Part shown: positions 2,116-62,110 of the stretch, piece by piece
Numbering within the stretch: the stretch's first letter is position 1
How the letters are laid out: the number at the start of each line of letters is the position of its first letter
Source: Dokdonia sp. 4H-3-7-5
GTDB taxonomy: Bacteria; Bacteroidota; Bacteroidia; Flavobacteriales; Flavobacteriaceae
DNA length: 64,000 bases
Direction of reading: 5' to 3'
NCBI RefSeq assembly: GCF_000212355.1
Contig: NC_015496.1
Coordinates: 3,318,001-3,382,000, forward strand
Made by a program: the position numbers and the translations under genes
The notes under the pieces: generated by a model
Databases searched by the model: none
Told to the model about the DNA's origin: nothing
Seen by the model: the letters and a program-made list of their open reading frames with translations, nothing else

Positions 2116-2137
2116 TTACGCTTTCGCGAAAGCGTAA
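2116..2137. repeat. Dispersed palindrome, copy 1 (perfect)
   Basis: Perfect 16-bp core CGCTTTCGCGAAAGCG at 2119-2134 with TTA/TAA flanks that extend the palindrome to 22 bp. Intergenic, 20 bp after the stop of the first gene. Confidence 0.9.
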
Positions 2138-2209
2138 ATAAAAATTTACCCATTAGTAAAGGATCAAATCTTAGTCTTGCACTAGCTACAAGTTGAAAAT
2201 ATTACGCAT

Positions 2210-2242
2210 AAAAAAAGCTCCCTGTTTGGGAGCTTATTTTTT
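2210..2242. terminator. Bidirectional terminator between convergent genes
   Basis: Stem AAGCTCCC/GGGAGCTT (2215-2222 with 2228-2235) has an A run on the left and a T run on the right, so it can end transcripts from both convergent paralogues. Confidence 0.85.
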
Positions 2243-2284
2243 ATACATAATAACGAGATGGTAAAGTCTTGCTATGAAATATTA

Positions 2285-5200
2285 TTACAGTCTCACACCG
2301 AATCTAAAGTCAATTCTTACTCCATCTTCTCCAGCAAAGGCACCTAATTGACCTGAAACAGTATCTATCATATTCAACCAGAAACCTCCACCGAAATCAT
2401 TGTGCCACTTCTCACTATCTTCTCCATCAAGCCATACACGACCTACATCTCCTCCACCAAAAACACCTATTTGGATAGGAATTAATCCTGTAGAAAATCT
2501 ATTAAAACTATATCTCAAATCTGCTGAACCAGCTAGTGCTGATTCTCCTGTAAATCTATTGAATCTATATCCTCTCAAACCAGAATTTGCACCTAAAGAT
2601 GCGGCCTGATAGAACTCATAGTCATCACCTATACGCACTTGAGCTTGCACAAGTGTTTTAAGGACTAACTTTCTGTTTTTAGATAGTGCATTGTAGAACC
2701 CTAATTTAGGATTTACATATGCATACATTCTACTACCATCGCTTATGTTGCGCTTTGCACCTATTACTGTTGCAAAATCCATTCCTCTCGTAGGATTAGC
2801 TTGGTTATCTGCACTTACATAAGTATAAGCTCCTTCTACACCTATAAAAGATTGCCCTCCAAAGAAATTACTGCGATCTGGTGTAAATAAGCTAGCGTCA
2901 TCAATCACTCGGCCACCTGTAGGTTCGATTTCAATACGCTCATAATTAAATACAAATCGCAATCTACTACCAAAGGTGTTGTCACTCTCTACTCCTATAT
3001 GTGCGCCTACTTCTCCATTACGAACTCTGTTGAAGTCTAAACCTAAATCATCATCGTTATTTACAGTCTCGTTACCAAAACCAAAGAAGTTACGAGAAAA
3101 AGCTTCGTTTGTAAACTTACCTCCTACTATCAAGTTCCACTGTCCAAATGCGTTTGCAAAATTTCCTTCATATTTTAAACTTAGGGACTCCGTAGCAAAT
3201 GAATAAGTTCCATTTAGCGTATGCTTACTACTAAATGGATCATTCTTAAAACCATTTGTAGTAAACACATCATTTATTCCTATCAAGAAACCATCGTCAG
3301 GATTAAAACCTATAGCTGGTAAAATGTTATTTGCATAACTCTTTTTCTTTAAAGGGTCATAGGTATTAAACGTATAGATATTTGACATCTTGAAACTGGC
3401 ACCTCCTTTTTCTTTAATAGTGTTGGGTAAAGTTTTGTGCTCGTATATTTTAAGACGGCGACCATCTTTAATTTCATAGATATCATTGTTTTGTCCTCCT
3501 ACAATTTTCATTCTTATAGGCGACTTTCCTTCTCCACTTACTTTAAAGCTATCATCATCATCAAGACCATAAATCCATATCTCACCGGTCTCATCGGCGT
3601 TAATTACGCGATCTACAAAAGGTGTTTCAATTTCTCCACCTTTAATTCTTGAGATTTGAACTCTAGTCTCCTTATCATTACGAGTAATTTCAAAATGATC
3701 ATCCTTATCTGTTCCAGTAAGTACTACCAGCGAAGCCAGATAATCATAATATTCACCTGCGATGTCAACAATGTTGCCTCTACGTTCTTTAAGGCTTTTC
3801 TTAATTTCATCTACACCTACGTCTTGCACTTCGAGAGGTAGTTTTGTAAATGCTCTAGCGATATCTTCATCACTAAGATTATCTTGTATATACTGAGCTT
3901 GTGCTATCCAATCCTTCTTTACAGAGTTCTTGGTAAGCGCTCTATCCATCTTAATACCTGCCTCGTTGATCCACTTCACGTTTTCAAGATCTCCATCGTA
4001 ATTTTGGAATTGTCTAGATGCGGGGATTAAAGTTTTAAGTAAGCCTAAAATAGCACCATCAAACTTTGAAAATACCTGATCTCTATCTCTTGGGATAGGT
4101 TTATATATTTTCTTTCCATCACTATCAAAACGTGCCCACCTCCACTGGTCTGCATGACGGTCCCAGTCTCCTATAAGCATGTCAAAAATACGTGCTCGTA
4201 AATAAGAGTCTTCATCTACTTGATACTTCTCATCTTTACGTAGGTTTTCATAGAGATCATCTGTACTGTCAATACTATCAGGGTTTCCAAAAGATGGTAC
4301 ATCTAGAAAATCTTCGTCTGGGCGTTCTTCTATAATATATAATTCATTACCGTAATCTGCATTATACTTACCTAATGCATCATGTTTTGGAACATAAATT
4401 AAGCTAGGATTTGTGTGATAAATACCCACTGCATCAGAGAGCTCTGCCACCGCAAGGGAAGCATATGGATGTGCAGATGTATAAAAATCTAATATTAAAT
4501 CCTCTGTAAATGTATCTCTGAATTCTTCTTGAACAAAAACCTCTTTAAAAGCAACACTTTGCAAGAACTGCACGGCGCTTTTTCTCACTGCTCTTAAATT
4601 ATAAGCTCTTCCGTCTTTATCTTTTAATCGTAATGATCTTGTCTGGTGACCACCACCCTTACGGTCAACTGTAAATCCGCCCATGAGTGTATCTAGCGTA
4701 GCAACTTTAGCCGTTACTGGAGTTCCGTAAACAGCTCTATAATGATCTCCCCATAGTGACTCATGTACATCTGACACATCTGTATTATTCTGAGCATACA
4801 CCGTAGCCATTACAGTCTCTGGATATATTTCTGGTAGCGAATCTAAATTTACTTCCTTACGAGGTGCAAAAACCTCTTTTGTGTATAGTAACGTAGGTTC
4901 TCCTTGATTTGCCGCATAAAATCTTACAGATGAAGATTCATCTTCATATATGTCTAAAATAGCAAATCCTTGACCTCCGTAAGAAAACAAACCATCGTCT
5001 CCTAAAGCTGCGGCACTGTTCTTTGCTCCTGCTCCACTCACAATCTGTTTTATACCATCATGCTCTATATATTGGATACTATGCTCGTGACCTGATGCAA
5101 AAATCACTTTATCTGTATCTCTCGCAAGTACAGAGATGCGTTGCATTAACTCATTATATTGCTTGTTATAGCGATCTTGAATTGACACTCCACCTTGTGA

Positions 5201-6007
5201 TCTTACTTGAGTGACAAGAGAGGCAAGTACTGGAAGCGGCAGATTGCTTTGTGTAGGATATAACTGCTTTCTTATACCATATTTACCACCATGAATCCCA
5301 TTTGTATACATAGGGTGGTGCATTGCTACAAGTATTGTCTTTTCGTTATTCTTTTTGAACTCATTTTCTATTTCTAAAAATAAATCAGTTCTATTTCTAA
5401 TATCGCAATTATCATTTATTGTAGGATGCTTGTCCCAGTCTTCTAGATACCACTGCGTGTCAATGATCATTAATTCCACAGAGTCGCTTATGCTTTTCAT
5501 TTCAATAGGACATCCATTTTCAGGTTGAAATGCTTCCTTATCATCTAGCGCATCTTCTATATATTTTTCTTGACGCTTTACACCTTCAACACCATCTGCG
5601 TACCAGTCATGATTTCCAGGAATAAAAAAAGTTTTTCCCTTAAAGTTTTCGACTGCCGCTACTTGAATATTTAATCTGCGCTCAGCTTCGGCTCTTTCTG
5701 GATTATTCTTTGATGGAAGTCCAGCATCATAAATATTATCACCTAAAAAGATTGCATAGTCATTTTCTGTTTGCGCTGTGTCTATCACTTTCTTAAACGC
5801 ATCAAGGGCATAAGTACTACCACCATCTTTATCTCCTCCTGCATCTCCTATGAGGTAGAAGGTTTTATGAATACGCTTTCGCGAAAGCGAACTGTTATCA
5901 AAACGAGAAGGCTCGCTTGACTCATCTGCATATTTAGGCGAATAAGTCGCACAACTACTAAGTAAAATGGCTACTGAGAAGTTAAGAAAACGGTAATATT
6001 TGTTCAT
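2285..6007 (-). CDS. Lipoprotein fusion: metallophosphatase, kinase-like block and outer-membrane beta-barrel
   Basis: About 1240 residues if started at the ATG at 6007, which gives a short lipoprotein signal ending in LLSSC; an ATG at 6028 would only lengthen it. The N-terminal third is a calcineurin-like metallophosphatase: D55 in LIGDAGG, FLGDNIYD, N132-H133-D134 in PGNHDWY, HHPMYTNG and H307-E-H309. The middle has IGDWDRHADQWRW (D616-R-H618) and IPRDRDQVF (D641, D643), like the HipA/Fam20 kinase core. Acidic repeats such as YGLDDDDSFKV follow, then a C-terminal Omp85/surface-antigen-type barrel. A palindrome copy near the N-terminus is read as LSRKR just before the phosphatase domain. It probably sits in the outer membrane; the substrate is unknown. 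Phosphatase and barrel are clear, kinase activity is inference. Confidence 0.85.
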   Translation of the reverse strand: MNKYYRFLNFSVAILLSSCATYSPKYADESSEPSRFDNSSLSRKRIHKTFYLIGDAGGDKDGGSTYALDAFKKVIDTAQTENDYAIFLGDNIYDAGLPSKNNPERAEAERRLNIQVAAVENFKGKTFFIPGNHDWYADGVEGVKRQEKYIEDALDDKEAFQPENGCPIEMKSISDSVELMIIDTQWYLEDWDKHPTINDNCDIRNRTDLFLEIENEFKKNNEKTILVAMHHPMYTNGIHGGKYGIRKQLYPTQSNLPLPVLASLVTQVRSQGGVSIQDRYNKQYNELMQRISVLARDTDKVIFASGHEHSIQYIEHDGIKQIVSGAGAKNSAAALGDDGLFSYGGQGFAILDIYEDESSSVRFYAANQGEPTLLYTKEVFAPRKEVNLDSLPEIYPETVMATVYAQNNTDVSDVHESLWGDHYRAVYGTPVTAKVATLDTLMGGFTVDRKGGGHQTRSLRLKDKDGRAYNLRAVRKSAVQFLQSVAFKEVFVQEEFRDTFTEDLILDFYTSAHPYASLAVAELSDAVGIYHTNPSLIYVPKHDALGKYNADYGNELYIIEERPDEDFLDVPSFGNPDSIDSTDDLYENLRKDEKYQVDEDSYLRARIFDMLIGDWDRHADQWRWARFDSDGKKIYKPIPRDRDQVFSKFDGAILGLLKTLIPASRQFQNYDGDLENVKWINEAGIKMDRALTKNSVKKDWIAQAQYIQDNLSDEDIARAFTKLPLEVQDVGVDEIKKSLKERRGNIVDIAGEYYDYLASLVVLTGTDKDDHFEITRNDKETRVQISRIKGGEIETPFVDRVINADETGEIWIYGLDDDDSFKVSGEGKSPIRMKIVGGQNNDIYEIKDGRRLKIYEHKTLPNTIKEKGGASFKMSNIYTFNTYDPLKKKSYANNILPAIGFNPDDGFLIGINDVFTTNGFKNDPFSSKHTLNGTYSFATESLSLKYEGNFANAFGQWNLIVGGKFTNEAFSRNFFGFGNETVNNDDDLGLDFNRVRNGEVGAHIGVESDNTFGSRLRFVFNYERIEIEPTGGRVIDDASLFTPDRSNFFGGQSFIGVEGAYTYVSADNQANPTRGMDFATVIGAKRNISDGSRMYAYVNPKLGFYNALSKNRKLVLKTLVQAQVRIGDDYEFYQAASLGANSGLRGYRFNRFTGESALAGSADLRYSFNRFSTGLIPIQIGVFGGGDVGRVWLDGEDSEKWHNDFGGGFWLNMIDTVSGQLGAFAGEDGVRIDFRFGVRL
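5874..5889. repeat. Dispersed palindrome, copy 2 (perfect, in gene)
   Basis: Perfect 16-bp core inside the metallophosphatase-barrel gene, read as LSRKR in the linker between the lipobox and the phosphatase domain. Confidence 0.9.
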
Positions 6008-6055
6008 GTCCTTGTTTTTAATGTACATTAGAGGTCTAACAGGCTTATAGTAACT

Positions 6056-7297
6056 ATGACTGAACTACTAGAAAAGACAGATAGATTTATTTCTGAACTA
6101 TTTGATAATGAACTACCTAAGACATGTATATATCATAACTATGTCCATACCAAACGAGTACTTAAAAGTACCCAAGAAATAATTGATAATAGTGAAGAAA
6201 GTCTTAAAGATGAAGAAAAGCTCATCTTACAGCTTAGCGCACTACTACATGACATAGGGTATGTAGATGGAACCGAAAATCATGAAGCACGCAGTGCCGA
6301 AATGGCTGAAACGTTTTTGAAAGAACAGGGCGTTGAGGCTACTATTATAGAAGAGGTGAAAAAAGTGATTCTTGCCACAGACATGCGCGTAGAACCACAA
6401 ACATACCTAGAACAAGTTTTAAGAGACGCAGATGCTTCACATTTTGCCAAGGATTATTTTCCTGAGGCTAGTGAGTATTTACGTCAAGAATTAAAAATAA
6501 AAGGTATTAAAGAGTTTACCACGGAGGAGTGGAATAAGGCAAATATTGAGATGTTCACCATAAAACATCGCTATTATACGCACTATGCCCAAGAAAACTG
6601 GAAACCGAAAAAAGATAATAACCTAAACGATCTCACCAAAGCAAGAAAGAAAGCTAAAAAGGCACGTAAAAAGGAAAAACTAAAAGTACAACTTAAAGAT
6701 GCTAGCCCAGAAAAAGGAATCCAGTCTATGTATCGCATCGCGCTACGCAACCATATTAAATTAAGTGATATTGCAGATACTAAGGCAAACATATTGCTTT
6801 CTGTAAATGCGATTGTGATTTCTCTTGCTCTTGCAAACCTGATCCCAAAACTAGAGTCTCCTAGTAATGCTCACCTTATATATCCAACGGCGGTATTTGT
6901 ACTTTTTGCCATGATATCGATGATTATGTCAATTATTGCTACACGACCTAATGTAACAAGGGGTGAGTTTGACAGAGAAGATGTAAAATTGAAAAAGGTG
7001 AACCTATTATTTTTTGGTAATTTTCATAAAATGAAACTTGAAGATTATGAATGGGCTATAGGAGAAATGCTTCAAGACAAAGATTATATCTACTCTGCCC
7101 TTACTAAAGATTTATATTTTCTAGGAGTTGTACTCGACAGAAAATATAAGCTCTTAAGAATAACCTATAATATTTTTATGGTGGGTATCATTATATCTGT
7201 ACTAACGTTTGCTGTGTTCTTTGCTTACAGAGATCAAGCAGTAGAAGTCATGGAGGACGTAGAAAGCCTCACTAATATGGTGACAACACTATTATAA
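6056..7297 (+). CDS. HD-domain phosphohydrolase fused to a Pycsar-type (DUF5706) membrane effector
   Basis: 413 residues. The N-terminal ~190 residues form an HD hydrolase: YHNYVHTKRV (H27, H31), LLHDIGY (H65-D66), H76 and D124/D126. A Lys-rich linker (about 190-215) follows. The C-terminal part begins MYRIALRNHIKLSDIADTK, then KANILLSVN and membrane segments around 245-262, 275-297 and 375-397, which matches the PycTM/DUF5706 family of Pycsar effectors. In Pycsar defence such proteins respond to cCMP/cUMP made by a neighbouring cyclase and damage the membrane; no cyclase gene is present here. The HD domain might destroy or sense a nucleotide signal. Divergent from the metallophosphatase gene with a short gap. 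Domain calls are strong; the role is open. Confidence 0.8.
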   Translation: MTELLEKTDRFISELFDNELPKTCIYHNYVHTKRVLKSTQEIIDNSEESLKDEEKLILQLSALLHDIGYVDGTENHEARSAEMAETFLKEQGVEATIIEEVKKVILATDMRVEPQTYLEQVLRDADASHFAKDYFPEASEYLRQELKIKGIKEFTTEEWNKANIEMFTIKHRYYTHYAQENWKPKKDNNLNDLTKARKKAKKARKKEKLKVQLKDASPEKGIQSMYRIALRNHIKLSDIADTKANILLSVNAIVISLALANLIPKLESPSNAHLIYPTAVFVLFAMISMIMSIIATRPNVTRGEFDREDVKLKKVNLLFFGNFHKMKLEDYEWAIGEMLQDKDYIYSALTKDLYFLGVVLDRKYKLLRITYNIFMVGIIISVLTFAVFFAYRDQAVEVMEDVESLTNMVTTLL

Positions 7298-12092: not shown

Positions 12093-12108
12093 CGCTTTCG
12101 CGAAAGCG
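12093..12108. repeat. Dispersed palindrome, copy 3 (perfect)
   Basis: Perfect 16-bp core, intergenic, 21 bp after the stop of the endo/exonuclease/phosphatase gene. Confidence 0.9.
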
Positions 12109-15766: not shown

Positions 15767-17827
15767 TTACTGAGTAATAGACTCTAAGTCAAGTAAAAAG
15801 GCATAATCTTCGGCGATTTCTTTTAATGCTTCAAATCGTCCAGAAGCACCACCATGACCTGCATCCATATTACAATGAAACATGATTTTTGTATCAGCTT
15901 GATTCGTTTCTCTTAGTCTCGCTACCCACTTTGCAGGTTCCCAATATTGCACTTGACTATCATGGTATCCTGTGGTAACAAATATATTTGGGTACGCTTT
16001 CGCGAAAGCGTTATCATAAGGACTGTAGCTCTTCATATACTCATAGGACTCCTTTTCATTAGGATTGCCCCACTCATCATACTCACCTGTGGTAAGCGGA
16101 ATGGTATCGTCAAGCATGGTTGTCACAACGTCTACAAAAGGTACGGCTGCAATAATTCCATTATAAAGCTCTGGCGCCATGTTTACAATTGCACCCATCA
16201 ATAATCCTCCTGCCGAACCTCCGTAAGCATATAAATGACTAGCCGAAGTGTAAGAGTTACTTATCAAATGTTTTGAAACATCAATAAAATCTGTGAACGT
16301 ATTTCTTTTCTTGAGCAACTTTCCATCCTCATACCACATTCTTCCTAAATACTCACCTCCTCTTACGTGTGCGATGGCATAAATAAAACCACGATCTAAA
16401 AGAGATAATCTTATTGTTGAGAAAGAAGGATCTGTAGTACTACCGTAACTTCCATAGGCATACTGTAACAAAGGAGCTGTACCATCTAGTTGTGTGTCTT
16501 TGTGGTAGATTATAGATACTGGAACCTTAACTCCATCTTGAGCTATTGTCCAGATGCGCTCCATGTTATAATTATCTTTATCAAAGTTTCCGCCTAATAC
16601 CTCTTGCTCTTTAAGGACCACTTTTTCTTGAGTGACCATATCAAAATCTATAACAGACGCAGGTGTATTAAGCGCATTATAAGCATATCGTAAAATCTGA
16701 GTATCAAAATCGATATTTGTGGTAGGATAAGCGTCGTATGTTTCATTATCAAAAGGCAAATAATAGCTTTCTGAATTATCCCATCGCTTGATGTGTATTT
16801 TATTCAAACCATTGCTACGCTCACTTACCACAAGAAAATCCTTAAAAATCTCTACATCTTCTAGCAAGGTATCATCTCGATGAGGGATTATGTCTACCCA
16901 ATTTTCCATTCCAGTAGCAGATACTAGGGTTTTCATGAGTTTAAAGTTGGTCGCCTTATCTTTATTAGTCTGTATATAAAAAGAATCGTCATAATGAGAC
17001 ACTGCATACTCCAGCCCTCTTGTACGTTCTTGAAAAACCTTAAAATCTGTAGTACCTTCTGCTGCAGATGCAAAGCGAAATTCACTCGTCATCGTGCTGT
17101 CACAACCTATCATAATGTAATCCTTAGACTTAGATTTAAAAACATAGGTATAAAACGTCTCGTCATTTTCTTGATAAACAAGTTCGTCTTGACTAGGATC
17201 TGTTCCTAAGGTGTGCTTAAATATTTGATTAGATCTCAGGGTTTCTTCATCTTTTCTAGAATAATAAACCGTTTTATTATCATTTGACCAAACAGCGCCT
17301 CCAGTGGTGTTTTTGATTTCAGCTGGATAAATTTCTCCAGTCTTAAGATTTTTAAACCTGATTGTATATTGCCTTCTACTTACCGTGTCTATCCCAAAAG
17401 CAGCAATCATATTATCCTCAGATACGGCATAACTAGCTTGACTAAAATAAGAATGCCCTTCTGCCATTTTATTATTATCAAATACAATAATCTCTTCACT
17501 ATCCAAGGTAGCTTCTTTTCTACAATATAGTGGATAGTCTTTTCCAGTCTCAAAACGACGGTAATACCAGAAACCATTGTGCTTATAAGGTACCGACGAA
17601 TCATCTTCTTTAATACGACCTTTCATTTCTTCAAAAAGTGATTTCTGAAAGTCCTTTGTATGCTCTGTAAGTTTATGATAATATTCATTCTCTTGATTTA
17701 AATAATCAAGAACCTCCGGAGCATCGCGCTCTTTCATCCAGAAATAGTCATCAGTACGGATATCTCCATGCTTTTCTAATTGTACTGGAATCTTTTTGGC
17801 TACTGGAGGGAATATGTGCTTTGTCAA
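15767..17827 (-). CDS. Oligopeptidase B-like S9 family serine peptidase
   Basis: 686 residues, the usual length for oligopeptidase B. The N-terminal part (KKIPVQLEKHGDIRTDDYFW) and following beta-propeller region (about 70-400) precede an alpha/beta hydrolase domain. The catalytic serine is in YGGSAGGLLMG, with the Asp region VTTGYHDSQVQYWEP and the His in MDAGHGGASGR. AHVRGGEYLGRMWYEDG is typical of S9A. It cleaves short peptides, probably after basic residues, in the cytoplasm or periplasm (no signal peptide seen). A palindrome copy at 15995-16010 is read as AFAKA between YDNAFAKAYPN, near the catalytic domain end. Divergent from ybaB. Confidence 0.93.
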   Translation of the reverse strand: MTKHIFPPVAKKIPVQLEKHGDIRTDDYFWMKERDAPEVLDYLNQENEYYHKLTEHTKDFQKSLFEEMKGRIKEDDSSVPYKHNGFWYYRRFETGKDYPLYCRKEATLDSEEIIVFDNNKMAEGHSYFSQASYAVSEDNMIAAFGIDTVSRRQYTIRFKNLKTGEIYPAEIKNTTGGAVWSNDNKTVYYSRKDEETLRSNQIFKHTLGTDPSQDELVYQENDETFYTYVFKSKSKDYIMIGCDSTMTSEFRFASAAEGTTDFKVFQERTRGLEYAVSHYDDSFYIQTNKDKATNFKLMKTLVSATGMENWVDIIPHRDDTLLEDVEIFKDFLVVSERSNGLNKIHIKRWDNSESYYLPFDNETYDAYPTTNIDFDTQILRYAYNALNTPASVIDFDMVTQEKVVLKEQEVLGGNFDKDNYNMERIWTIAQDGVKVPVSIIYHKDTQLDGTAPLLQYAYGSYGSTTDPSFSTIRLSLLDRGFIYAIAHVRGGEYLGRMWYEDGKLLKKRNTFTDFIDVSKHLISNSYTSASHLYAYGGSAGGLLMGAIVNMAPELYNGIIAAVPFVDVVTTMLDDTIPLTTGEYDEWGNPNEKESYEYMKSYSPYDNAFAKAYPNIFVTTGYHDSQVQYWEPAKWVARLRETNQADTKIMFHCNMDAGHGGASGRFEALKEIAEDYAFLLDLESITQ
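15995..16010. repeat. Dispersed palindrome, copy 4 (perfect, in gene)
   Basis: Perfect 16-bp core in the S9 peptidase gene, read in the AFAKA frame. Confidence 0.9.
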
Positions 17828-20826: not shown

Positions 20827-20842
20827 CGCTTTCGCGAAAATG
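20827..20842. repeat. Dispersed palindrome, copy 5 (imperfect)
   Basis: CGCTTTCGCGAAAATG; left arm intact, right arm degraded. It abuts the stop codon of the zinc metalloprotease gene and lies before ltaE. Confidence 0.8.
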
Positions 20843-23329: not shown

Positions 23330-23455
23330 TTAGAGACACACAACACCCTACAAGCTAGCCCCGATTGTCGTGTAAATCCCACAGCTGCCTGGCACAGCCG
23401 GCGCGAGGAATTGCAACAGAAAGCGGGAAACCCAGATGCATAATACATAATACCC
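23330..23455. ncRNA. Candidate structured RNA (family and strand unresolved)
   Basis: By my count 57 of 100 bases at 23341-23440 are G or C, far above the A+T-rich surroundings, yet no credible protein is encoded. Short pairings are visible: CGATTGTCG, GCTGCCTGGCACAGC and GGGAAACCC. As a + strand RNA it would end near the hairpin at 23474-23499; as a - strand RNA it could be a leader of the metalloprotease gene. No TAnnTTTG box decides the strand. I do not recognise the family; tmRNA, RNase P, SRP and tRNA signatures are absent. Confidence 0.4.
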
Positions 23456-25674: not shown

Positions 25675-25690
25675 CGCTTTCGCGAAAACG
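25675..25690. repeat. Dispersed palindrome, copy 6 (imperfect)
   Basis: CGCTTTCGCGAAAACG, one mismatch in the right arm; intergenic between the sigma factor and yidC. Confidence 0.85.
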
Positions 25691-27702: not shown

Positions 27703-27718
27703 CGCTTTCGCGAAAGCG
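27703..27718. repeat. Dispersed palindrome, copy 7 (perfect)
   Basis: Perfect core with TA on the left, in the 82-bp pyrG-yidC gap, 28 bp upstream of the yidC start. Confidence 0.9.
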
Positions 27719-27756: not shown

Positions 27757-29514
<1,758 letters not shown>

Positions 29515-31020: not shown

Positions 31021-31057
31021 CGCAATTATTGTTTTAAGAAGTGAGAGTGGATTATTA

Positions 31058-31073
31058 CGCTTTCGCGAAAGCG
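31058..31073. repeat. Dispersed palindrome, copy 8 (perfect, guaB leader)
   Basis: Perfect core in the 5' leader of guaB, 37 bp upstream of the start codon and 37 bp downstream of the -7 box. Confidence 0.9.
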
Positions 31074-31110
31074 AATAAACTATAAATCCACGCTAACAAT
31101 TAATTGCATG

Positions 31111-31602: not shown

Positions 31603-31616
31603 GACAAGGATATTAC

Positions 31617-31660
31617 AAAGACAAAGCCATCTCATAAGTTTATGAGATGGCTTTGTCTTT
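31617..31660. terminator. Long bidirectional hairpin terminator
   Basis: A 20-bp perfect stem (31617-31636 with 31641-31660) and four-base loop between the convergent eight-cysteine gene and the TonB receptor gene. T residues end both arms. Confidence 0.8.
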
Positions 31661-31676
31661 GAGTAAAACTCTATTG

Positions 31677-34115: not shown

Positions 34116-35475
34116 CTGTAAATGGTATAATCCAATTTTTATGAGCAAAAGAATCTTCTATTTGCGCGAGATCCGCTTTGGGATCAATATATGTGGTACT
34201 CAACCTTCCATTAAGAGCAACATAAGACTCCACGTAGACTTCTACCTCTTGGTGACCCTGACCCTCAAAATGGTCGCGAAGATAGTGAGCATATTCTAAA
34301 ATAAAGTCTGGCTGGAAGCTCATTTGCTTTTCTTGTAGTGGAGTTAAGAAATCTGTATTATCTACATAAAATCGCTTTCCGCTTACGCCATCTACTATTT
34401 TAAATTGTGCATAGCCAGATTTCTCCATGAGCATCACTCTCCATGAGAATCTATAGCCCTCTTCTGTCCAGAATAACTCCCCAGGATACGCTAGGTAACG
34501 CCATGGCAATAGTAGTTGGACTGTAAAAAATATCGCTACAATAACTATAGAAGCCTTTGCTAGATTAAGGTTTCTAGGCGCATAATGCTGTGTAGTTTCT
34601 AATAACTGTTGTGGATATTTTACCGCTTTCGCGAAAGCATAAATAATCTTTTTATGAAAACCTACATCAAAGAAAATCAACGCGCTCACTATCATCACAT
34701 ACGGAAACATCCCGATAGGAAACAACACTCGTGTAAGCACATGGAAAATGATGACCATGATAAATGCAAAAGGCCTCGACTTACGCCAGAGCAAGAAAAA
34801 AGGAATCAACAAATCATATCCCGCTCCAAACCAACTAAAGGCATAATGCACCCATTCTTGACCCAACAAATCACCTATAAACGGAATATCAAATTTAGAA
34901 GGCAACCAAATTTTAAGCGGCATGGCCTTTACAAGCCAGTCACTATTAAGCTTTGCTAGTCCTGCATATACATACACTATCCCCAGCAGTAGTTTGATAC
35001 TATCTATTGTCCAGCGAGGCACAAACTGGATGGGTGTAGCTGCACGCTTTCGCGAAAGCTGTAATGCATCAATCGAAAAATAAGAACCAGCAGGTATAAA
35101 AATCATCAAGAAGCTAAGCATGCTGATGAAGTAATAGTGATTGAGATACATGGTTTTATCCATGAGCTCTATATATGTGAAGCTCAAAAAGAATATGATA
35201 ATTGCCAGACGGTATTTATAACCTATGGTTATCATGATCGTACTTAACGCACATATCGCAAATAACAAGTAGGTATAATTCTCGAAAGGACGCACCCACT
35301 CAAAACCATAAAATGTAAAATGGAAGGATGGTGCAATATAGAATTTCTCAATCCACCCGTGACTCCAGAATCTGATGAGACTGGCTAGCATGAGCAATCC
35401 AAAAGACACACGAAAGACCGCTAGTGGTGCGGCCTCTCTTTGTGTATTTAAATATCTTTTGACTTGCTGTATCAT
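34096..35475 (-). CDS. HTTM-domain membrane protein
   Basis: 459 residues. About seven membrane segments in the first ~300 residues, with APLAVFRVSFGLLMLASLIR and LLGIVYVYAGLAKLNSDWL matching the HTTM family (horizontally transferred transmembrane domain, related to vitamin K-dependent gamma-carboxylase). The last ~140 residues are soluble and probably periplasmic. Members of this family recur next to imelysin and TonB receptors in Bacteroidota iron operons; the reaction is not known. It contains two palindrome copies (read as AFAKA and LSRKR). It sits 7 bp after the imelysin gene and overlaps the receptor gene. Confidence 0.85.
   Translation of the reverse strand: MIQQVKRYLNTQREAAPLAVFRVSFGLLMLASLIRFWSHGWIEKFYIAPSFHFTFYGFEWVRPFENYTYLLFAICALSTIMITIGYKYRLAIIIFFLSFTYIELMDKTMYLNHYYFISMLSFLMIFIPAGSYFSIDALQLSRKRAATPIQFVPRWTIDSIKLLLGIVYVYAGLAKLNSDWLVKAMPLKIWLPSKFDIPFIGDLLGQEWVHYAFSWFGAGYDLLIPFFLLWRKSRPFAFIMVIIFHVLTRVLFPIGMFPYVMIVSALIFFDVGFHKKIIYAFAKAVKYPQQLLETTQHYAPRNLNLAKASIVIVAIFFTVQLLLPWRYLAYPGELFWTEEGYRFSWRVMLMEKSGYAQFKIVDGVSGKRFYVDNTDFLTPLQEKQMSFQPDFILEYAHYLRDHFEGQGHQEVEVYVESYVALNGRLSTTYIDPKADLAQIEDSFAHKNWIIPFTDEIKGL
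34624..34639. repeat. Dispersed palindrome, copy 9 (one mismatch, in gene)
   Basis: CGCTTTCGCGAAAGCA, inside the HTTM gene and read in the AFAKA frame (YAFAKAVKYP). Confidence 0.85.
35045..35060. repeat. Dispersed palindrome, copy 10 (one mismatch, in gene)
   Basis: CGCTTTCGCGAAAGCT, inside the HTTM gene and read in the LSRKR frame (LQLSRKRAAT). Confidence 0.85.
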
Positions 35476-38586: not shown

Positions 38587-38602
38587 CGCTTTCGCGAAAG
38601 CA
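38587..38602. repeat. Dispersed palindrome, copy 11 (one mismatch)
   Basis: CGCTTTCGCGAAAGCA, intergenic, directly beside the helicase terminator. Confidence 0.85.
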
Positions 38603-41671: not shown

Positions 41672-41687
41672 CGCTTTCGCGAAAATG
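41672..41687. repeat. Dispersed palindrome, copy 12 (imperfect)
   Basis: CGCTTTCGCGAAAATG, right arm degraded, in the gap before cca, 39 bp upstream of its start. Confidence 0.85.
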
Positions 41688-43520: not shown

Positions 43521-44312
43521 TTAATTTGTAGCGACTTCAACTGTCTCTTCGTTATCGCCTATTACTTCACTACTCTTCTGGAACATACCAATTGTATAGT
43601 CAAGTAACTCTTTATCTCCTCTACCACCATGTCCAGGAATCACTTGTAAGACATTTGGATAACGATTTTGTAAAGTAGTTACCGTGTTTGCCCACTCATC
43701 GAGATTTGCATCTGCAAGATTTCCTTTTGTTCCATCTAGCGGCTTGATCATACAACCACCTAATAAAATATCTGATGCTGGTATGTATGCAATAGAATTA
43801 TCATCACTGTGAGCAGGTCCTAGATACTCCATTACAATAAAATTTTCGGCTATCTGTATGCTGTCTTTTTGTGAGAAAGGATTACTAATAGCTAGAGAAT
43901 CTTTGGCTAGTAATGCTGCTGTTTTGGCAGAAGCGTAAGTGGGTATTTTTGCTTTCGCGAAAGCGTTAATACCACCAGCACCATCTATATGAGAGTGACT
44001 CACTTGCACCCCTTTTATAGTTGCCTTTAGGTCTTCTTGTACAAATGTGATAAGCTGTTCAGAAAGTGTATCGTTAAGAGGTGTGTCAAAAATAAAAGCT
44101 TCGCTTCCTTCTACTCGTATGTAACCATTGCAAGGAATATAACCACCATAACTATCTTTTAGGTAAGATACATGCACGTAGTCTTGCTCTGATAATTTTA
44201 TGATCTCCAAGGATCTTACATATGGTTCTGGATCATACTTACTATTATCAAAACAGGAGTTTAATAGTAGTACGGCTAGACAGATCCCTAACATCTGTAG
44301 TAGTCGACACAT
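43521..44312 (-). CDS. Subclass B1 metallo-beta-lactamase, lipoprotein form
   Basis: 263 residues. Signal MCRLLQMLGICLAVLLLNSC ends in a lipobox Cys, so it is likely membrane-anchored. All six B1 zinc ligands are present: H106-S-H108-I-D110, H168 in GPAHSDDN, C187 in GGCMIK and H228 in PGHG. GNLADAN after the Cys also matches the NDM/VIM-like core. It should hydrolyse beta-lactams including carbapenems if substrate specificity follows the family; chromosomal B1 enzymes are common in flavobacteria. A palindrome copy at 43950 encodes NAFAKAK directly after the DGAGGI motif, with the same spacing as in NDM-1. Only 8 bp separate it from the helicase gene, so they are probably one transcript. Confidence 0.92.
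   Translation of the reverse strand: MCRLLQMLGICLAVLLLNSCFDNSKYDPEPYVRSLEIIKLSEQDYVHVSYLKDSYGGYIPCNGYIRVEGSEAFIFDTPLNDTLSEQLITFVQEDLKATIKGVQVSHSHIDGAGGINAFAKAKIPTYASAKTAALLAKDSLAISNPFSQKDSIQIAENFIVMEYLGPAHSDDNSIAYIPASDILLGGCMIKPLDGTKGNLADANLDEWANTVTTLQNRYPNVLQVIPGHGGRGDKELLDYTIGMFQKSSEVIGDNEETVEVATN
43950..43965. repeat. Dispersed palindrome, copy 13 (one mismatch, in gene)
   Basis: TGCTTTCGCGAAAGCG inside the metallo-beta-lactamase gene, read as AFAKA in the helix after the HxHxD zinc motif. Confidence 0.9.
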
Positions 44313-45911: not shown

Positions 45912-45927
45912 CGCTTTCGCGAAAGCG
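45912..45927. repeat. Dispersed palindrome, copy 14 (perfect)
   Basis: Perfect core with TA on the left, between the ABC permease stop (45933) and its terminator. Confidence 0.9.
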
Positions 45928-48917: not shown

Positions 48918-49973
48918 CTATTTCTGTTCTTTATTAAAATACACTAAGTAATAGTACATCTGTTTTTCCTCATCCCATCCTTTTTCAACAAACTTCTCTG
49001 CGCTTTCTCCATTGATAAAATCTAGTTTTATCTGGATATTAGTATCAAGATTAATAACACTCTTGATCTTCTTACGCTGTGCTGTTACCGCTTTGTTGCT
49101 TATAGAAAAATCGGTAAGATCCTCTATTTTATATTTTGGAGATTGTTCTGCTTTGTAATTACGAAATTCAGGTATCAAATCTGGATTTTCGATCACCTCA
49201 TTCATAAAAGCAGACTCGTCAAAGGTATCGTTCTTTGCAAAGTGATTTACCGCACGGTTCATAAAAAGAACTTCTTCCTTCTTATCCTCAGCAGGCAATA
49301 CCACGTCTTTTGCAAAGTCTTGACAGAACTTCAAGTACTTTTTAGTGTAGAAAGTCTCGTCTTCAAAAATCTCTACGCCTAGAAAATTTTCTAGCCAGTA
49401 CTTCGTATCATAGCGGTTAGAATCTATAGAGAGCACTTTATAACCTTCTTCTTCTTTATGGTTAAAAATCAAACACCCTTTGTCTAGTTTATTAAGATTA
49501 ATCCCTTGCTCAAGAATCATCTGTAGGTTTGTCCCGCTTTCGCGAAACTGTAAGAAATCCTGTTTAAGTTCGCTCTTAAAGATTCCTATTGCATCTGTTT
49601 TAATATTATCAATCTGCACACCATCTAAGTGTACGATGTATAATTCTCCTGGCTTGATATGCGGGTGATCACTTTGTGCATAAAGATGCTTTGCGATATC
49701 TTCAGAAAGTAAGTGTGTACCACTTGGATTATCAAAGATTTTCTTAGCTAGACTAAAAAGCGTGTTAAACTCTATATCTTGCTCATGGAAGAATTTATAA
49801 TAATTCTCCTCTTTCTCACGAAAAGGCTTAAAGAAAAACTCCTTAATAAGTGGTGTAAGTTCGTCACTTAATGGATATGGATCTTGAGATACAAAAAGCC
49901 CTTCTGCTTTACCTTTATTTCCAATACGGTGAATGGAAAGTGATTCTATCTGGGCACTGTATAAGTTTATCAT
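48918..49973 (-). CDS. Nucleoid-associated protein (YejK/NdpA family)
   Basis: 351 residues, the family length. QIESLSIHRIGNKGKAEGLF at the start and the helical-plus-sheet layout of PF04245, with GCLIFNHKEEEGY and LGVEIFEDETFYTKKYL further on. Family members bind DNA in the nucleoid and are often abundant. The gene holds a palindrome copy at 49535-49550 read as FRES (LQFRESGTNL). Upstream of the COX15-like and acidic-protein genes but separated by 70 bp. Confidence 0.88.
   Translation of the reverse strand: MINLYSAQIESLSIHRIGNKGKAEGLFVSQDPYPLSDELTPLIKEFFFKPFREKEENYYKFFHEQDIEFNTLFSLAKKIFDNPSGTHLLSEDIAKHLYAQSDHPHIKPGELYIVHLDGVQIDNIKTDAIGIFKSELKQDFLQFRESGTNLQMILEQGINLNKLDKGCLIFNHKEEEGYKVLSIDSNRYDTKYWLENFLGVEIFEDETFYTKKYLKFCQDFAKDVVLPAEDKKEEVLFMNRAVNHFAKNDTFDESAFMNEVIENPDLIPEFRNYKAEQSPKYKIEDLTDFSISNKAVTAQRKKIKSVINLDTNIQIKLDFINGESAEKFVEKGWDEEKQMYYYLVYFNKEQK
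49535..49550. repeat. Dispersed palindrome, copy 15 (imperfect, in gene)
   Basis: CGCTTTCGCGAAACTG; right arm changed at the end; inside the YejK-like gene, read as QFRES. Confidence 0.8.
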
Positions 49974-50605: not shown

Positions 50606-51661
50606 TTATCTCATGGGAGAGACTGCTACCCTTTTTGGGAAACTTTCTAACAATACGTAGAATTGTGCGCCAAATAATAATGACGATATCACTAAGTGTA
50701 AAGGTTGTGTGCCAAATGGGAAATCTATATAATACATAGCAATCCCGGTTACTACCTCCAGCCCTATAAAAATAAGCACCCAGTTGAGCAACTTAGTATG
50801 ACCTAAGACTAAACTTCTGTTACGCCAGAAAATATAAAGATTGAGGAGCGTGACAAGTATAGAAAAAGATCTATGCACATAAAACCATATGGTCGCAGGG
50901 TTAAGCCATAATTCTTTTGCTTCATAGCCTACTTCAGCAACGCGCTCGTCTACATATTGACGCACTTGGGTTCCTAGTGCTATTTGGATAAGTGTTAATA
51001 GACTAGCAATAATTATTAAGTTTTTAAAACGTGGGTCATAGGTACGCTTTCGCGAAAGCGTATCCTGCAAACCTTCCTTTATCTGAGATTTCCACCATAA
51101 GAATAACAATAAGGCTACAATAAATAACGCCGCTATCATGTGAATGGTAATCTTCACGGGAAGTAAATTTGAGTCCACAACTTGCTTACCAAGCCATGCT
51201 TGAAAAAGCATGAGTGGCATCACCATAAACGTGGCAAAAATGAGCCATTTATTACCCTTCCAGTACCAGAAAGCTAGAATAACCATAAGTAAAATAGGGA
51301 TTCCTGCTAGTGCAGTCACGAGTCTATTTATATACTCTATCCACGTATGCCATACATTAAAACTAGCATAATCATGTTTATCATAGGTTTCCCAGTTGGC
51401 TTCGTTATATGAATCTCCAGAAGTAAAATCTGTAGGAGCAATACGTAATGATTCTTCCAGTATGATTACTTGTCCATCTTCATACAGATGGTTAGGCTCC
51501 CATCGTAGCTCGCTCTCCTCCGTAGGCGGCACTAGGTACCCAAAACACTGCGGCCAGTCTGGACATCCCATACCACTTCCCGTCATACGCACCACCGCTC
51601 CTGCAATAATAATTAAGTATAAAAATATAATGGATATTTTAAGAAGGCGTCTGTACCACAT
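50606..51661 (-). CDS. Heme A synthase (COX15/CtaA family)
   Basis: 351 residues from the ATG at 51661; a start at 51685 lies within the promoter -7 box. About eight membrane segments. VRMTGSGMGCPDWPQCFGYL holds the conserved region near the first heme ligand, VWHTWIEYINRL and a later TIHMIAALFIVALL and FYVHRSFSILVTLL carry His ligands. It oxidises heme O to heme A for cytochrome oxidase. A palindrome copy is read as LSRKR (DTLSRKRTYD) in a cytoplasmic loop. No other oxidase-assembly genes are adjacent. Confidence 0.93.
   Translation of the reverse strand: MWYRRLLKISIIFLYLIIIAGAVVRMTGSGMGCPDWPQCFGYLVPPTEESELRWEPNHLYEDGQVIILEESLRIAPTDFTSGDSYNEANWETYDKHDYASFNVWHTWIEYINRLVTALAGIPILLMVILAFWYWKGNKWLIFATFMVMPLMLFQAWLGKQVVDSNLLPVKITIHMIAALFIVALLLFLWWKSQIKEGLQDTLSRKRTYDPRFKNLIIIASLLTLIQIALGTQVRQYVDERVAEVGYEAKELWLNPATIWFYVHRSFSILVTLLNLYIFWRNRSLVLGHTKLLNWVLIFIGLEVVTGIAMYYIDFPFGTQPLHLVISSLLFGAQFYVLLESFPKRVAVSPMR
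51045..51060. repeat. Dispersed palindrome, copy 16 (perfect, in gene)
   Basis: Perfect core in the heme A synthase gene, read in the LSRKR frame. Confidence 0.9.
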
Positions 51662-52815: not shown

Positions 52816-52906
52816 CAAAGAAATGAGTTAAAAAAAAAGCTTACGTAAGAGACACATAAGCCAGATTAAAAATCAAGTCAATATTTACTCATTGTTTATT
52901 TTTCAA

Positions 52907-52920
52907 TTTTCGCGAAAGCG
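52907..52920. repeat. Dispersed palindrome, copy 17 (partial)
   Basis: TTTTCGCGAAAGCG: left arm degraded, core and right arm intact; beside the lpdA terminator. Confidence 0.8.
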
Positions 52921-54522: not shown

Positions 54523-54538
54523 AATTTTCGCGAAAGCG
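54523..54538. repeat. Dispersed palindrome, copy 18 (partial)
   Basis: AATTTTCGCGAAAGCG: left arm partly lost; between the DUF2911 stop and its terminator hairpin. Confidence 0.8.
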
Positions 54539-55429: not shown

Positions 55430-55445
55430 CGCTTTCGCGAAAAAG
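55430..55445. repeat. Dispersed palindrome, copy 19 (imperfect, DUF2911 leader)
   Basis: CGCTTTCGCGAAAAAG, right arm changed; it sits where transcription should start from the -7 box at 55453, so it probably begins or lies at the very 5' end of the DUF2911 mRNA. Confidence 0.85.
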
Positions 55446-56986: not shown

Positions 56987-57002
56987 CGCTTTCGCAAAAG
57001 CG
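56987..57002. repeat. Dispersed palindrome, copy 20 (one mismatch in core)
   Basis: CGCTTTCGCAAAAGCG, the only copy with a change in the central TTTCGCGAAA; in the SDR-photolyase gap. Confidence 0.8.
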
Positions 57003-58378: not shown

Positions 58379-58380
58379 TA

Positions 58381-58396
58381 CTTTTTCGCGAAAGCG
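58381..58396. repeat. Dispersed palindrome, copy 21 (imperfect)
   Basis: CTTTTTCGCGAAAGCG with GTAC on both sides, two bases after the photolyase stop codon. Confidence 0.85.
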
Positions 58397-58532: not shown

Positions 58533-58940
58533 ATGAAAATATCAACCATTGCAAATATCCTTACGGTTGTAACCATCCTTGCTATAGGTTATTTTGCAAT
58601 TCCAAAACTGATAGGACTTGAACAAAGTATCAAAGGTTTTTCTAACTTTAATGAGAGAATAGGAATACCAAATAACATTGCGAGATGCGTCACGGGAGTA
58701 GTAGAATTAATCACGGCAGTATTGCTTTTACTCTCTCTTACGCTCAAAAGCAAAAGAGAAGTTACTCATATTTTAGGGTATTTACTTCTAACGGGAACTA
58801 TGCTGGGAGGCTTACTCACTGAGTATTTAATACGTCCCGAACCTAAAATGATGCTCGTTTATATTGCCATAGCTTTGCTTATAATTGCCGTGTACCAACT
58901 TTTAAATACGTACGCACTTAAAACCGTTGATCATGAATAA
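58533..58940 (+). CDS. DoxX-like small membrane protein
   Basis: 135 residues with four membrane segments near 5-25, 48-68, 76-96 and 106-126. The pattern GYFAIPKLIG early and ARCVTGVVELITAVLLLLS in the second helix fit DoxX-like proteins. The family is linked to thiol oxidation or oxidoreductase partners in some bacteria; substrate unknown. Its end overlaps the next start by 8 bp, so it is co-translated with the SDR. Confidence 0.8.
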   Translation: MKISTIANILTVVTILAIGYFAIPKLIGLEQSIKGFSNFNERIGIPNNIARCVTGVVELITAVLLLLSLTLKSKREVTHILGYLLLTGTMLGGLLTEYLIRPEPKMMLVYIAIALLIIAVYQLLNTYALKTVDHE

Positions 58941-59670: not shown

Positions 59671-59679
59671 CATTCTTTT

Positions 59680-59695
59680 CGCTTTCGCGAAAATG
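59680..59695. repeat. Dispersed palindrome, copy 22 (imperfect)
   Basis: CGCTTTCGCGAAAATG, right arm degraded; 9 bp after the SDR stop. Confidence 0.85.
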
Positions 59696-59728
59696 TGCTT
59701 TTCATATATTAGTAGCTAACAATCTCCC

Positions 59729-60100
59729 ATGATAGCATCCATACTAACTTTCTGGAGGTCCTTATCATACACTACTCGATTCTCTATTATAGCTTTTGTA
59801 GCAATACTTCCTATCGGGCTCTTTAGTATGGGAATTCTAGGAGCGTTACTGTATTATCCCGTTTCATTCTTGTTTACCTCCTATCCTACCCTCAATGACT
59901 GGACTGGTGATTGGGTATGGCCAGCAACAATAGGTGTAGGGATGTTTTGGTCTTTTGGCTTTATCTGGGCTGGACTTGCTTGGCACTTTCTGCATAGTAA
60001 GATACATTCTCTACATGTGCTCAGAGTGATGTATGCGCTTATATGCTGGGCCTGGGCTGCAGTATTGTGGTATGGAGTGATAAGCAGCAACCTATCGTAA
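59729..60100 (+). CDS. Small membrane protein of unknown family
   Basis: 123 residues with three hydrophobic segments (about 15-50, 65-88, 95-118). Many Trp and Tyr residues near segment ends, typical of small integral proteins. No known motif and no signal cleavage. It lies between the SDR and M20 genes and may belong to neither operon. I cannot assign a role. Confidence 0.65.
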   Translation: MIASILTFWRSLSYTTRFSIIAFVAILPIGLFSMGILGALLYYPVSFLFTSYPTLNDWTGDWVWPATIGVGMFWSFGFIWAGLAWHFLHSKIHSLHVLRVMYALICWAWAAVLWYGVISSNLS

Positions 60101-60167
60101 CTATATCATTTTCTGGAGTTTTGATTTTGTGTATCTTAGAAGCTACCAACCAAAATGTTAGACTTTA

Positions 60168-61601
60168 ATGAAAAAATTGACACTCCTCTACGTTTTAAGT
60201 ATGATCACGCTAAGCGTCTCTGCTCAAAAACTTTCAAAAAACAAACAAGCAGTAATCGCGGCTGTTGAAAAACATGAAAAAGAACTCATCCGCATTTCTG
60301 ATGAGATATGGTCTGTTGCCGAGACTGCTTTTGAAGAAACCCAGTCGGCTGAAATTCTTGCCAGTTATGCTGAGAAAAATGGATTTACCGTAGATCGCGG
60401 CGTTGCTGGAATGCCTACGGCTTTTGTCGCTACGTATGGATCTGGAAGCCCTGTAATTAGTGTTTTGGGAGAGTTTGATGCACTGCCAGGACTTTCTCAA
60501 AAAACAGAGCCAACGAAGAATCCGCTCAATGAAGGTGAGCCTGGTCATGGCTGTGGTCACAATATGTTTGGCGCAGCGAGTTTAGGTGCTGCCATTGCTA
60601 TAAAAGAACAAATAGAAGCTGGAAAAATCAAAGGAACCGTAAAGTTCATGGGAACACCATCTGAAGAAAAGTTCTTTGGAAAAATATGGATGGTGCGTGA
60701 AGGTCTCTGGGATGATGTAGATGTAAATATTTCTTGGCATCCAGCAGCAGAAATGAAAGCAGATGTACAAAGCTCTCTTGCGCTTGTAGATTTTAAAATA
60801 GAATTTTTTGGTCAAGCAGCACACGCCAGTGCAGACCCATGGAATGGACGCTCTGCCTCTGATGCACTTGAAATTTATACAACAGGTGTAAACTATTATC
60901 GTGAACACGTAAAACCTACCGTGCGCATGCATTACCACATCCAAGATGGTGGTCAAGTGGTGAATGTAGTTCCAGATTACTCGCGTCTCTGGATGCGCGT
61001 GCGCGACACAGAACGCAAAGGTATGATGCCTGTGTATGAGCGCTTACAAGAAATGGTAGAAGGCGCGGCCATCCTTGCAGATGTAGATTATAAAGTATCT
61101 CTTATTTCTGGGATTTATGAAGTACTCGTCAATAGAACTGGTGGAGCAGTAATGCAAAACAATCTTGAGCTTCTAGGGCCTATAAATTATACGCCAGAAG
61201 AAATTGCCTTTGGTAAAAAAATTCAAGAAGTAACTGGAAAGCCTCAAGTAGGTATGGATAGTGCTATCAAACCACTTGAAGCGACTAGAGAAAATCCAGG
61301 TGGCGGTAGTACAGATGTGGGAGATGTGAGCTGGAATGTTGCAAACATCAACCTTGGTGTTACCACTGCTCCTAAGGATACACCGTGGCACTCATGGGCT
61401 GTCGTGGCTTGCGGCGGGATGTCTATTGGTCACAAAGGAATGACATATGCCAGTAAAGCAATGAGCATGACGATGCTTGATCTTTTTGAAGATCCTACGC
61501 TAGTAAAAAAAGTCAAAGCAGAATATAAAGAACGTAAAGGCGATGCCGTGTACGAGGCGATTGTACCAGCAGGACCGCCGCCAGTAAACCAAGGAAAATA
61601 A
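60168..61601 (+). CDS. M20-family amidohydrolase/peptidase with signal peptide
   Basis: 477 residues. Signal MKKLTLLYVLSMITLSVSAQ, so it acts outside the cytoplasm. M20 metal site regions: SVLGEFDALPG, PGHGCGHNMFGAAS, PSEEKFFG and SWHPAAEM, then the dimerisation domain FFGQAAHASADPWNGRSASD. Resembles AbgB-like amidohydrolases that hydrolyse N-acyl or p-aminobenzoyl amides; exact substrate unknown. Its stop TAA overlaps the start of the next gene (TAATG), so the VOC lipoprotein is coupled. Confidence 0.92.
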   Translation: MKKLTLLYVLSMITLSVSAQKLSKNKQAVIAAVEKHEKELIRISDEIWSVAETAFEETQSAEILASYAEKNGFTVDRGVAGMPTAFVATYGSGSPVISVLGEFDALPGLSQKTEPTKNPLNEGEPGHGCGHNMFGAASLGAAIAIKEQIEAGKIKGTVKFMGTPSEEKFFGKIWMVREGLWDDVDVNISWHPAAEMKADVQSSLALVDFKIEFFGQAAHASADPWNGRSASDALEIYTTGVNYYREHVKPTVRMHYHIQDGGQVVNVVPDYSRLWMRVRDTERKGMMPVYERLQEMVEGAAILADVDYKVSLISGIYEVLVNRTGGAVMQNNLELLGPINYTPEEIAFGKKIQEVTGKPQVGMDSAIKPLEATRENPGGGSTDVGDVSWNVANINLGVTTAPKDTPWHSWAVVACGGMSIGHKGMTYASKAMSMTMLDLFEDPTLVKKVKAEYKERKGDAVYEAIVPAGPPPVNQGK

Positions 61602-62110
61602 TGATGACTAACAAATTATTTATAAACGCAGTAGCTATTGTAGTTACTGCGTTATGCTTTTACTCTTGTACAGAAAAAACAAGCACAGAAACCACTAATT
61701 CAGACTCAGCTTCAGGATTTCAAGTTGCGATAGATCATTATGCGATTAACGTAGCAGATCTGGATGAAAGTGTCGCTTTTTATCAAGAGGTTTTCGGTTT
61801 GAAGGAAATTAAAGATGGTACAGAGGAGCCACATATAAGATGGTTTAGACTAGGGACTTCACAAGAATTACATATCATTGAAGTAGATAGCATAGATAAG
61901 AAAATACCTAAAGGAGTTCACATTGCACTTGCTGTAGGTGATTTTGACCGCTTTCGCGAAAGCATAGAAAAACGAAACCTCAACTACTACGACTGGCCAG
62001 GAAGTGCTAGCCAAATTTCAACACGTCCTGATAAAGTACGCCAACTCTACTTCCAAGATCCAGATGGTTATTGGGTGGAAGTAAATGATGGGAAGCAGTT
62101 CAATCATTAA
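61601..62110 (+). CDS. VOC-family (glyoxalase-like) lipoprotein
   Basis: 169 residues. Lipoprotein signal ending LCFYSC. One VOC module: IDHYAINVADLDESVAFYQE and a late QLYFQDPDGYWVEV, giving His and Glu metal-site candidates. A palindrome copy is read as RFRES in FDRFRESIEKRN. It may isomerise or bind a small molecule in the periplasm. It is translationally coupled to the M20 gene and 11 bp before an NTF2-like gene. Confidence 0.88.
   Translation: MMTNKLFINAVAIVVTALCFYSCTEKTSTETTNSDSASGFQVAIDHYAINVADLDESVAFYQEVFGLKEIKDGTEEPHIRWFRLGTSQELHIIEVDSIDKKIPKGVHIALAVGDFDRFRESIEKRNLNYYDWPGSASQISTRPDKVRQLYFQDPDGYWVEVNDGKQFNH
61949..61964. repeat. Dispersed palindrome, copy 23 (one mismatch, in gene)
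   Basis: CGCTTTCGCGAAAGCA inside the VOC gene, read in the RFRES frame. Confidence 0.85.

Follow-up and report, generated by a model that had tools for sequence, protein, structure and literature searches.

Why does the chromosome of Dokdonia sp. 4H-3-7-5 carry the same palindrome every few kilobases, and what reads it? The question is raised by a 64,000-nt stretch of contig NC_015496.1 (C1:3318001-3382000 of genome G000; the window), in which a first-pass annotation had reported 23 copies of a dispersed palindrome, eight of them perfect over 16 bp and 22 keeping a 10-mer expected fewer than 0.1 times by chance. All three counts were reproduced. The exact 10-mer TTTCGCGAAA was present 22 times in the window, compared to a mean of 0.02 in 100 dinucleotide-preserving shuffles, and 23 sites were found within three mismatches of the 16-mer CGCTTTCGCGAAAGCG, where 0.13 were expected (100 shuffles). 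The eight perfect copies had the same starts as claimed (2119, 5874, 12093, 15995, 27703, 31058, 45912, 51045). On the whole chromosome of G000 (a single contig of 3,389,993 bp) TTTCGCGAAA occurred 1012 times and the reversed-pattern control 10 times. The density of 299 copies/Mb, or one per 3.35 kb, was therefore far above chance, and the palindrome was not restricted to the window.

As an answer we tentatively propose, with somewhat less than even confidence, that the copies are genome-wide sites of a putative homodimeric, sequence-specific DNA-binding protein in Dokdonia, Nonlabens and a third genus, which would most likely serve nucleoid architecture. Two protein subunits would each read one half-site, and the putative dimer may contact or bend roughly 80 bp. 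If a site is required every few kb along the chromosome, a lost one would tend to be replaced nearby and the protein would act chromosome-wide by bridging, looping or bounding supercoil domains. A homodimer is suggested by the palindromy, the near-invariant core, the looser arms and the dyad-symmetric flanks, and a need per chromosome length by the regular spacing, the replacement of a lost site nearby and the uniform density.

Core and arms were analysed in a 464-kb sample of G000, comprising 20 evenly placed 20-kb stretches and the window, with about 5 kb masked. The sample contained 153 sites. TTCGCGAA lay within TTTCGCGAAA in 153 of 153 cases, while the 12-mer was present in 116 sites, the 14-mer in 112 and the full 16-mer in 72. 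The core of 10 bp, TTTCGCGAAA, hardly varies, and the arms ACGC/GCGT are looser. Samples of three other genomes yielded 67 sites in 187 kb (G016), 45 in 220 kb (G027) and 33 in 220 kb (G230). There, TTCGCGAA was inside the 10-mer in 67/68, 45/45 and 33/40 cases, respectively, which marks G230 as looser. One-mismatch cores numbered 25 in the G000 sample (14.6 expected), alongside 153 perfect ones, and 38 in G230. The near-cognate sequence TTCSGAA was below its trinucleotide-based expectation in the samples of G000, G016, G027 and G230 (2 vs 26 in G027), and also in the palindrome-negative genome G031.

In density and mismatch profile the nearest known kind is HIP1 (GCGATCGC). HIP1 and the alternate cyanobacterial HIPs are likewise palindromes with hundreds of copies per Mb, restricted to lineages and with few near-miss copies. 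Most cyanobacteria have 300-2700 Count/M of HIP1 in normalised 8-mer counts (PMC4390886), and the likeness in density drawn by the first-pass annotation is therefore fair. Synechocystis has 5648 perfect and 1830 one-mismatch copies of HIP1 (PMC1939737). The palindrome studied here differs in its sequence, the longer unit, the composition-biased flanks extending to about 35 bp, the measured even spacing, the lack of a conserved C5 methylase and the bacteroidete host. Since Elhai tied HIP sequences to orphan methylases (PMC4390886), the palindrome could be a sequence of this type, with an orphan DNA methyltransferase as its partner and a link to methyl-directed repair. We consider this very improbable. 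Hundreds of copies per Mb above chance were found, as for HIPs, but no matching orphan methyltransferase in a search that covered the cytosine-5 class only, with adenine and N4 methylases outside it. The family PF00145 had a match in 6/15 palindrome-rich and 5/11 other genomes, and 9 of the 15 palindrome-rich genomes, including G000, had none. A conserved m5C methylase is not supported as a partner on these grounds, nor is methylation in this sense of HIP1, one of the roles suggested at first. Moreover, the invariant unit of 10 bp is longer than usual methylase sites, and TCGCGA outside the palindrome was present at the expected number (64 vs 58, hits on both strands). The function of HIP1 is itself debated, and the palindrome offers a comparison for it.

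Outside the arms, each strand had a stretch of about 35 nt on the 5' side of the core that was poor in C and rich in T and G. The C fraction was 0.06 at 5-15 nt, 0.12 at 15-25 nt, 0.15 at 25-35 nt and 0.17 beyond. This bias was dyad-symmetric whichever strand was coding, and was seen in coding and intergenic sites. G016 and G027 shared it, and G230 had it in a weaker form. A hairpin or RNA function was rejected, since no covariation between the two flanks was detected over 153 sites, the flanks were not complementary, the bias was symmetric with regard to the coding strand, and a search of the window against Rfam with gathering thresholds had no match. One site speaks for a hairpin: the region 31030-31100, folded singly, formed an extended DNA hairpin with a z of -3.4.

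Among the readings considered, the strand-polar flanks are best explained by a palindromic two-way Chi-like site that is read by AddAB. An end-resecting enzyme arriving from either side would encounter the palindrome in its 3'-ended strand and leave RecA a 3' tail that is poor in C and unstructured. The C-poor stretch that precedes the core on each strand would be the tail retained when the enzyme arrives from the opposite side. The number of copies (1012 in 3.39 Mb) is also similar to that of Chi in E. coli (1008 in 4.64 Mb; PMC1939737). AddAB-type PDDEXK proteins were present in 25/25 genomes tested, and bounded gaps as well as absence from two phages (see below) fit self-recognition. Still, a two-way Chi is improbable in our view. 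AddAB was equally present in palindrome-free genera, and a protein found in all 25 genomes does not discriminate. Chi has a large excess of one-mismatch copies (8855 vs 1008 perfect; PMC1939737), which was not matched here. The dyad-symmetric core and arms suggest recognition of the double strand, and specificity of an enzyme for the palindrome is only putative. Known Chi sites are short, directional and not palindromic.

The placement of the sites was evaluated with genes called by a home-made finder, by which 85% of the DNA is coding; some intergenic calls represent missed genes. Although coding DNA prevails to this extent, only 74 of the 153 sites were genic and 79 intergenic. The latter comprised 18 sites in 5.2 kb of convergent gaps, 48 in 44.9 kb of tandem gaps and 13 in 14.4 kb of divergent gaps, and the genic sites were distributed over the three reading frames as 43, 18 and 13. 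The coefficient of variation (CV) of the gaps between sites was 0.50, compared to 0.96 (standard deviation 0.07) when sites were randomly re-placed within class and stretch, and none of 2000 re-placements was as even. Only 16 gaps were shorter than 1 kb (42 in re-placements). Observed and simulated CV were 0.55 and 0.95 in G016, 0.43 and 0.88 in G027, and 0.57 and 0.84 in G230. Both replichores carried sites. The number per 20-kb stretch ranged from 4 to 10 and was unrelated to how far a stretch lay from the origin (Spearman -0.19, p 0.41, 20 stretches), the origin being inferred from parS-like sites at 1.346-1.349 Mb and a change in GC skew.

A layout of this kind is also the anatomy of known uptake sequences, such as the uptake signal sequence (USS) of Pasteurellaceae and the DNA uptake sequence (DUS) of Neisseria. 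Like these, the palindrome is over-represented with about a thousand copies, originates by substitution, is evenly spaced, lies half within genes with an intergenic excess and has AT-rich flanks. Even spacing of uptake sequences is a claim of Karlin cited in PMC1939737, and their AT-rich flanks appear in PMC1626085. The palindrome could serve self-recognition in a natural transformation system that does not depend on pili. The cell would then favour DNA that bears the palindrome, and copies would accrue by mutation and biased import. Pilus-free transformation is known from Riemerella: the flavobacterial machine for transformation described in R. anatipestifer has no relation to type IV pili (PMC8459023), and DNA of R. 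columbina is a better competitor than foreign DNA (PMC7965970). DUF5689, the family of one essential transformation gene, was present in 25/25 genomes tested, and the palindrome was missing from two phages. We nevertheless rate an uptake sequence as rather unlikely. DUF5689 was equally present in palindrome-free genomes and therefore does not track the palindrome or discriminate between genomes. The pilus/secretion ATPase PF00437 was over the cut-off in 7/17 palindrome-rich and 5/29 other genomes; as it was missing in 10 of the 17, including G000, the classical pilus route is excluded there, and a type-IV-pilus uptake sequence is not supported. One-mismatch forms are common in known uptake sequences (438 perfect and 947 one-mismatch copies for the Actinobacillus type; PMC1939737), in contrast to the 153 perfect and 25 one-mismatch cores of our sample. 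Competence of Dokdonia had no support in the data examined. To our knowledge, no known uptake sequence is palindromic.

The phage data came from two Nonlabens phages (71.4 kb in total), which contained no copy and no one-mismatch copy. At the density of genus g11, inferred to be Nonlabens, 7.3 copies per phage were expected. The two phages are hardly independent because their terminases are 99.5-99.8% alike. IMG/VR contained 41 stretches with the 16-mer and 67 10-mers in 373 kb, and some of these contigs were too GC-rich for Dokdonia. It is conceivable, although doubtful, that the palindrome is a self-identity code, in which own DNA is marked every ~3 kb, phages are unmarked, and a pilus-independent flavobacterial uptake machine or a two-way-Chi machine reads either side. 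If true, this would be the first palindromic uptake or Chi-like signal.

We then return to the putative architectural protein and the history of its sites. In alignments with six relatives, the palindrome was retained where the flanks had diverged. With alignments shorter than 200 bp dropped, the 10-mer was intact at 15/15 aligned sites in G012, 20/20 in G008, 21/21 in G007, 9/10 in G003 and 17/19 in G016, compared to intact fractions of control 10-mers of about 0.72-0.76, 0.56-0.59, 0.39-0.40, 0.12-0.13 and 0.12-0.13, respectively. Identity to G016 is about 79%, and the flanks of the sites were near background. Viewed from G016, 17/24 sites were shared with the window. The site at 41675 was absent from three relatives (G003, G004, G016), all of which had a substitute 58-72 bp away. 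Between genera, places coincided in 6/16 cases for G027, 1/5 for G433, 2/3 for G281 and 2/5 for G230; of the coding coincidences, one was in another reading frame, one was 55 bp off and one was at the same codons. The alignment and turnover counts indicate that over short spans sites are well kept, and that over long spans permissive places are reused.

Since orthologous sites align without insertion gaps, the copies are not mobile, and the small mobile palindrome considered by the first-pass annotation was dismissed. For a dispersed mobile or REP-like element speaks the large number of copies of a single palindrome. Against it, about half of the copies are within predicted genes, they are regularly spaced and not clustered, the conserved unit is only 10-16 bp long, and the flanks of the 153 sites are not complementary, so that we give such an element almost no credence.

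The window copies are given below in window coordinates. They were found by the 16-mer search with up to three mismatches and are listed without a strand.

2119..2134, perfect 16-mer in a convergent intergenic gap
5874..5889, perfect, within the open reading frame (ORF) 2285-6028 (-) near its 5' end, kept in G008, G007, G003 and G016
12093..12108, perfect, intergenic, 3' of an ORF ending at 12071; G003 and G016 retain the core though the flanks barely align
15995..16010, perfect, within the prolyl oligopeptidase-like gene 15767-17827 (-)
20827..20842, two outer-arm mismatches
25675..25690, one arm mismatch, intergenic
27703..27718, perfect, 3' of the CTP synthase gene 27757-29391 (-), kept in 6/6 aligned relatives
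31058..31073, perfect, 5' of the IMP dehydrogenase gene 29548-31020 (-), at the extended DNA hairpin
34624..34639, one arm mismatch
35045..35060, one arm mismatch, 421 bp from the preceding copy
38587..38602, one arm mismatch
41672..41687, two arm mismatches; the substitutes in G003, G004 and G016 lie in the same gap
43950..43965, one mismatch, within the metallo-beta-lactamase-like gene 43521-44294 (-); G004 and G016 lack it where they align
45912..45927, perfect
49535..49550, two mismatches, within the gene 48918-49973 (-), read as FRE; the same codons hold a copy in G230 (another genus)
51045..51060, perfect
52905..52920, three mismatches in one arm, intergenic
54523..54538, three mismatches in one arm, intergenic
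55430..55445, two mismatches in one arm
56987..57002, copy 23, with the core TTTCGCAAAA; G007, G008 and G016 have TTTCGCGAAA in the aligned core, and the copy looks decayed
58381..58396, two mismatches in one arm, 5 bp past a predicted gene end
59680..59695, two mismatches in one arm, intergenic
61949..61964, one arm mismatch, within the gene 61601-62110 (+)

The distribution among genomes was narrow. Each of the 18 genomes in the genus, among them G000, had 481-1195 copies. A survey of 397 genomes of the family revealed six with high counts, namely G000 and G011 from the own genus, three genomes of g11 (595, 700 and 648 copies) and one of g210 (559 copies); each of the remaining 391 had at most 34. 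The 14-mer GCTTTCGCGAAAGC was present in 22/395 genomes sampled from the phylum, 757 times in G000 and at most six times in each of the other 21. The best named relative of the IMP dehydrogenase of the window (94% identity) was from an uncultured Dokdonia, whose locus is syntenic with the window and has 6 sites in 21 kb. Nonlabens tegetincola had 5 sites in 21 kb, while 78 other named loci had a single copy in one case and none in 77. We infer that genus g1 is very probably Dokdonia and g11 probably Nonlabens. The CTP synthase of g11 is 78-80% identical to that of g1, and several palindrome-free genera reach up to 82%. Because g11 is no closer to g1 than palindrome-free genera by this single gene, the three palindrome-bearing genera probably do not form one clade.

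Other genera had few copies, and several of these sat in metal-resistance islands (efflux, multicopper oxidase) that G200, G141 and G029 share in nearly identical form. The copper/heavy-metal resistance islands L304, L305, L309 and L311 encode proteins up to 99.6% identical between genera and bear palindrome copies in hosts that are otherwise copy-poor. We read the island copies as DNA that was probably passed on from palindrome-bearing hosts, and the palindrome can serve as a flag for DNA that formerly resided there. An inverted-repeat survey for dialects of the palindrome in other genera, covering 12 palindrome-free sequence sets of 43-201 kb each, revealed nothing comparable. An apparent motif in g8 consisted of ordinary coding words, and one in g62 was an intergenic hairpin repeat. 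The g62 inverted repeats CCCTTCAAGGG...CCCTTGAAGGG (L161 3080-6520) are intergenic, clustered and hairpin-like.

The sites of ParB (parS), Noc and SlmA are, like the proposed sites, palindromic sites of dimeric chromosome-binding proteins. Those sites are low in number and occupy limited regions of the chromosome, while the density sampled here was even. A segregation factor of the ParB type, as considered by the first-pass annotation, is not supported. ParB_N had one match in 14/15 palindrome-rich genomes and two in G010, and separate parS-like clusters were found in 11/11 Dokdonia genomes tested (in G000 at 1345881-1348910). The parS-like counts were barely above the reversed control (4 vs 3 in G000), so that the evidence is their clustering, and the places listed did not include those of the three g11 genomes. 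The separate clusters and the single ParB_N match argue, indirectly, against identity of the palindrome with a ParB/parS system.

Several points weigh against the architectural protein. Its cognate protein was not found in this analysis, and the statement of the first-pass annotation that the window shows no enzyme for the palindrome still stands. A composition preference over 30 bp without base-specific positions is unusual for a dimer binding to duplex DNA, and a single-strand process would fit at least as well. The scatter over three genera is not obviously explained by an essential architectural protein. In the conservation test, the window sites had been selected as intact and the control 10-mers had not. 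Seven of the 24 G016 sites were without an intact window copy at the same place: the 41675 site was shifted by 62 bp, the one at 56990 was decayed in the window, one was unaligned, and four had no window counterpart. In distant Dokdonia (G010, G011, G013, G014, G017) a site was present within 90 bp in only 3/21 site-gene pairs (0/3, 2/5, 1/5, 0/3 and 0/5, respectively; 6/11 in G004).

Taken together, the dense, real palindrome of HIP1-like density described at first was confirmed, and roles as a mobile element, in ParB-type segregation or with a conserved C5 methylase were not. Of the roles suggested at first, the nucleoid factor is the one we favour. About a thousand evenly spaced copies that are kept in near relatives imply that something chromosome-wide depends on the palindrome. 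The protein, if found, would be a new chromosome-organising factor in Bacteroidota, or the palindrome would be a signal by which DNA uptake or repair recognises own DNA, of which none was found for this phylum in the literature searched. The open-licence PMC text contained no papers with the 16-mer CGCTTTCGCGAAAGCG, and the 10-mer only in papers on other subjects, as judged by titles and the beginnings of abstracts. No description of the palindrome was found among the papers listed from the open-licence PMC literature on palindromes in Dokdonia and Nonlabens and on flavobacterial iterated palindromes.

Some features of the window stand apart from the palindrome. The gene at 43521-44294 (-) encodes a predicted subclass B1 metallo-beta-lactamase-like protein (202.8 bits; NCBIfam cut-off 200). 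The product of the region 6056-7297 contains the transmembrane domain of Pycsar effectors (PF18967, E 5e-37). The stretch 31616-31661, 5' of the IMP dehydrogenase gene, matches itself on the opposite strand and is an inverted repeat of about 46 bp. A 77-bp intergenic stretch at 23355-23431 is repeated many times across Dokdonia genomes, e.g., in G000 near 565049, 670741 and 2343870.

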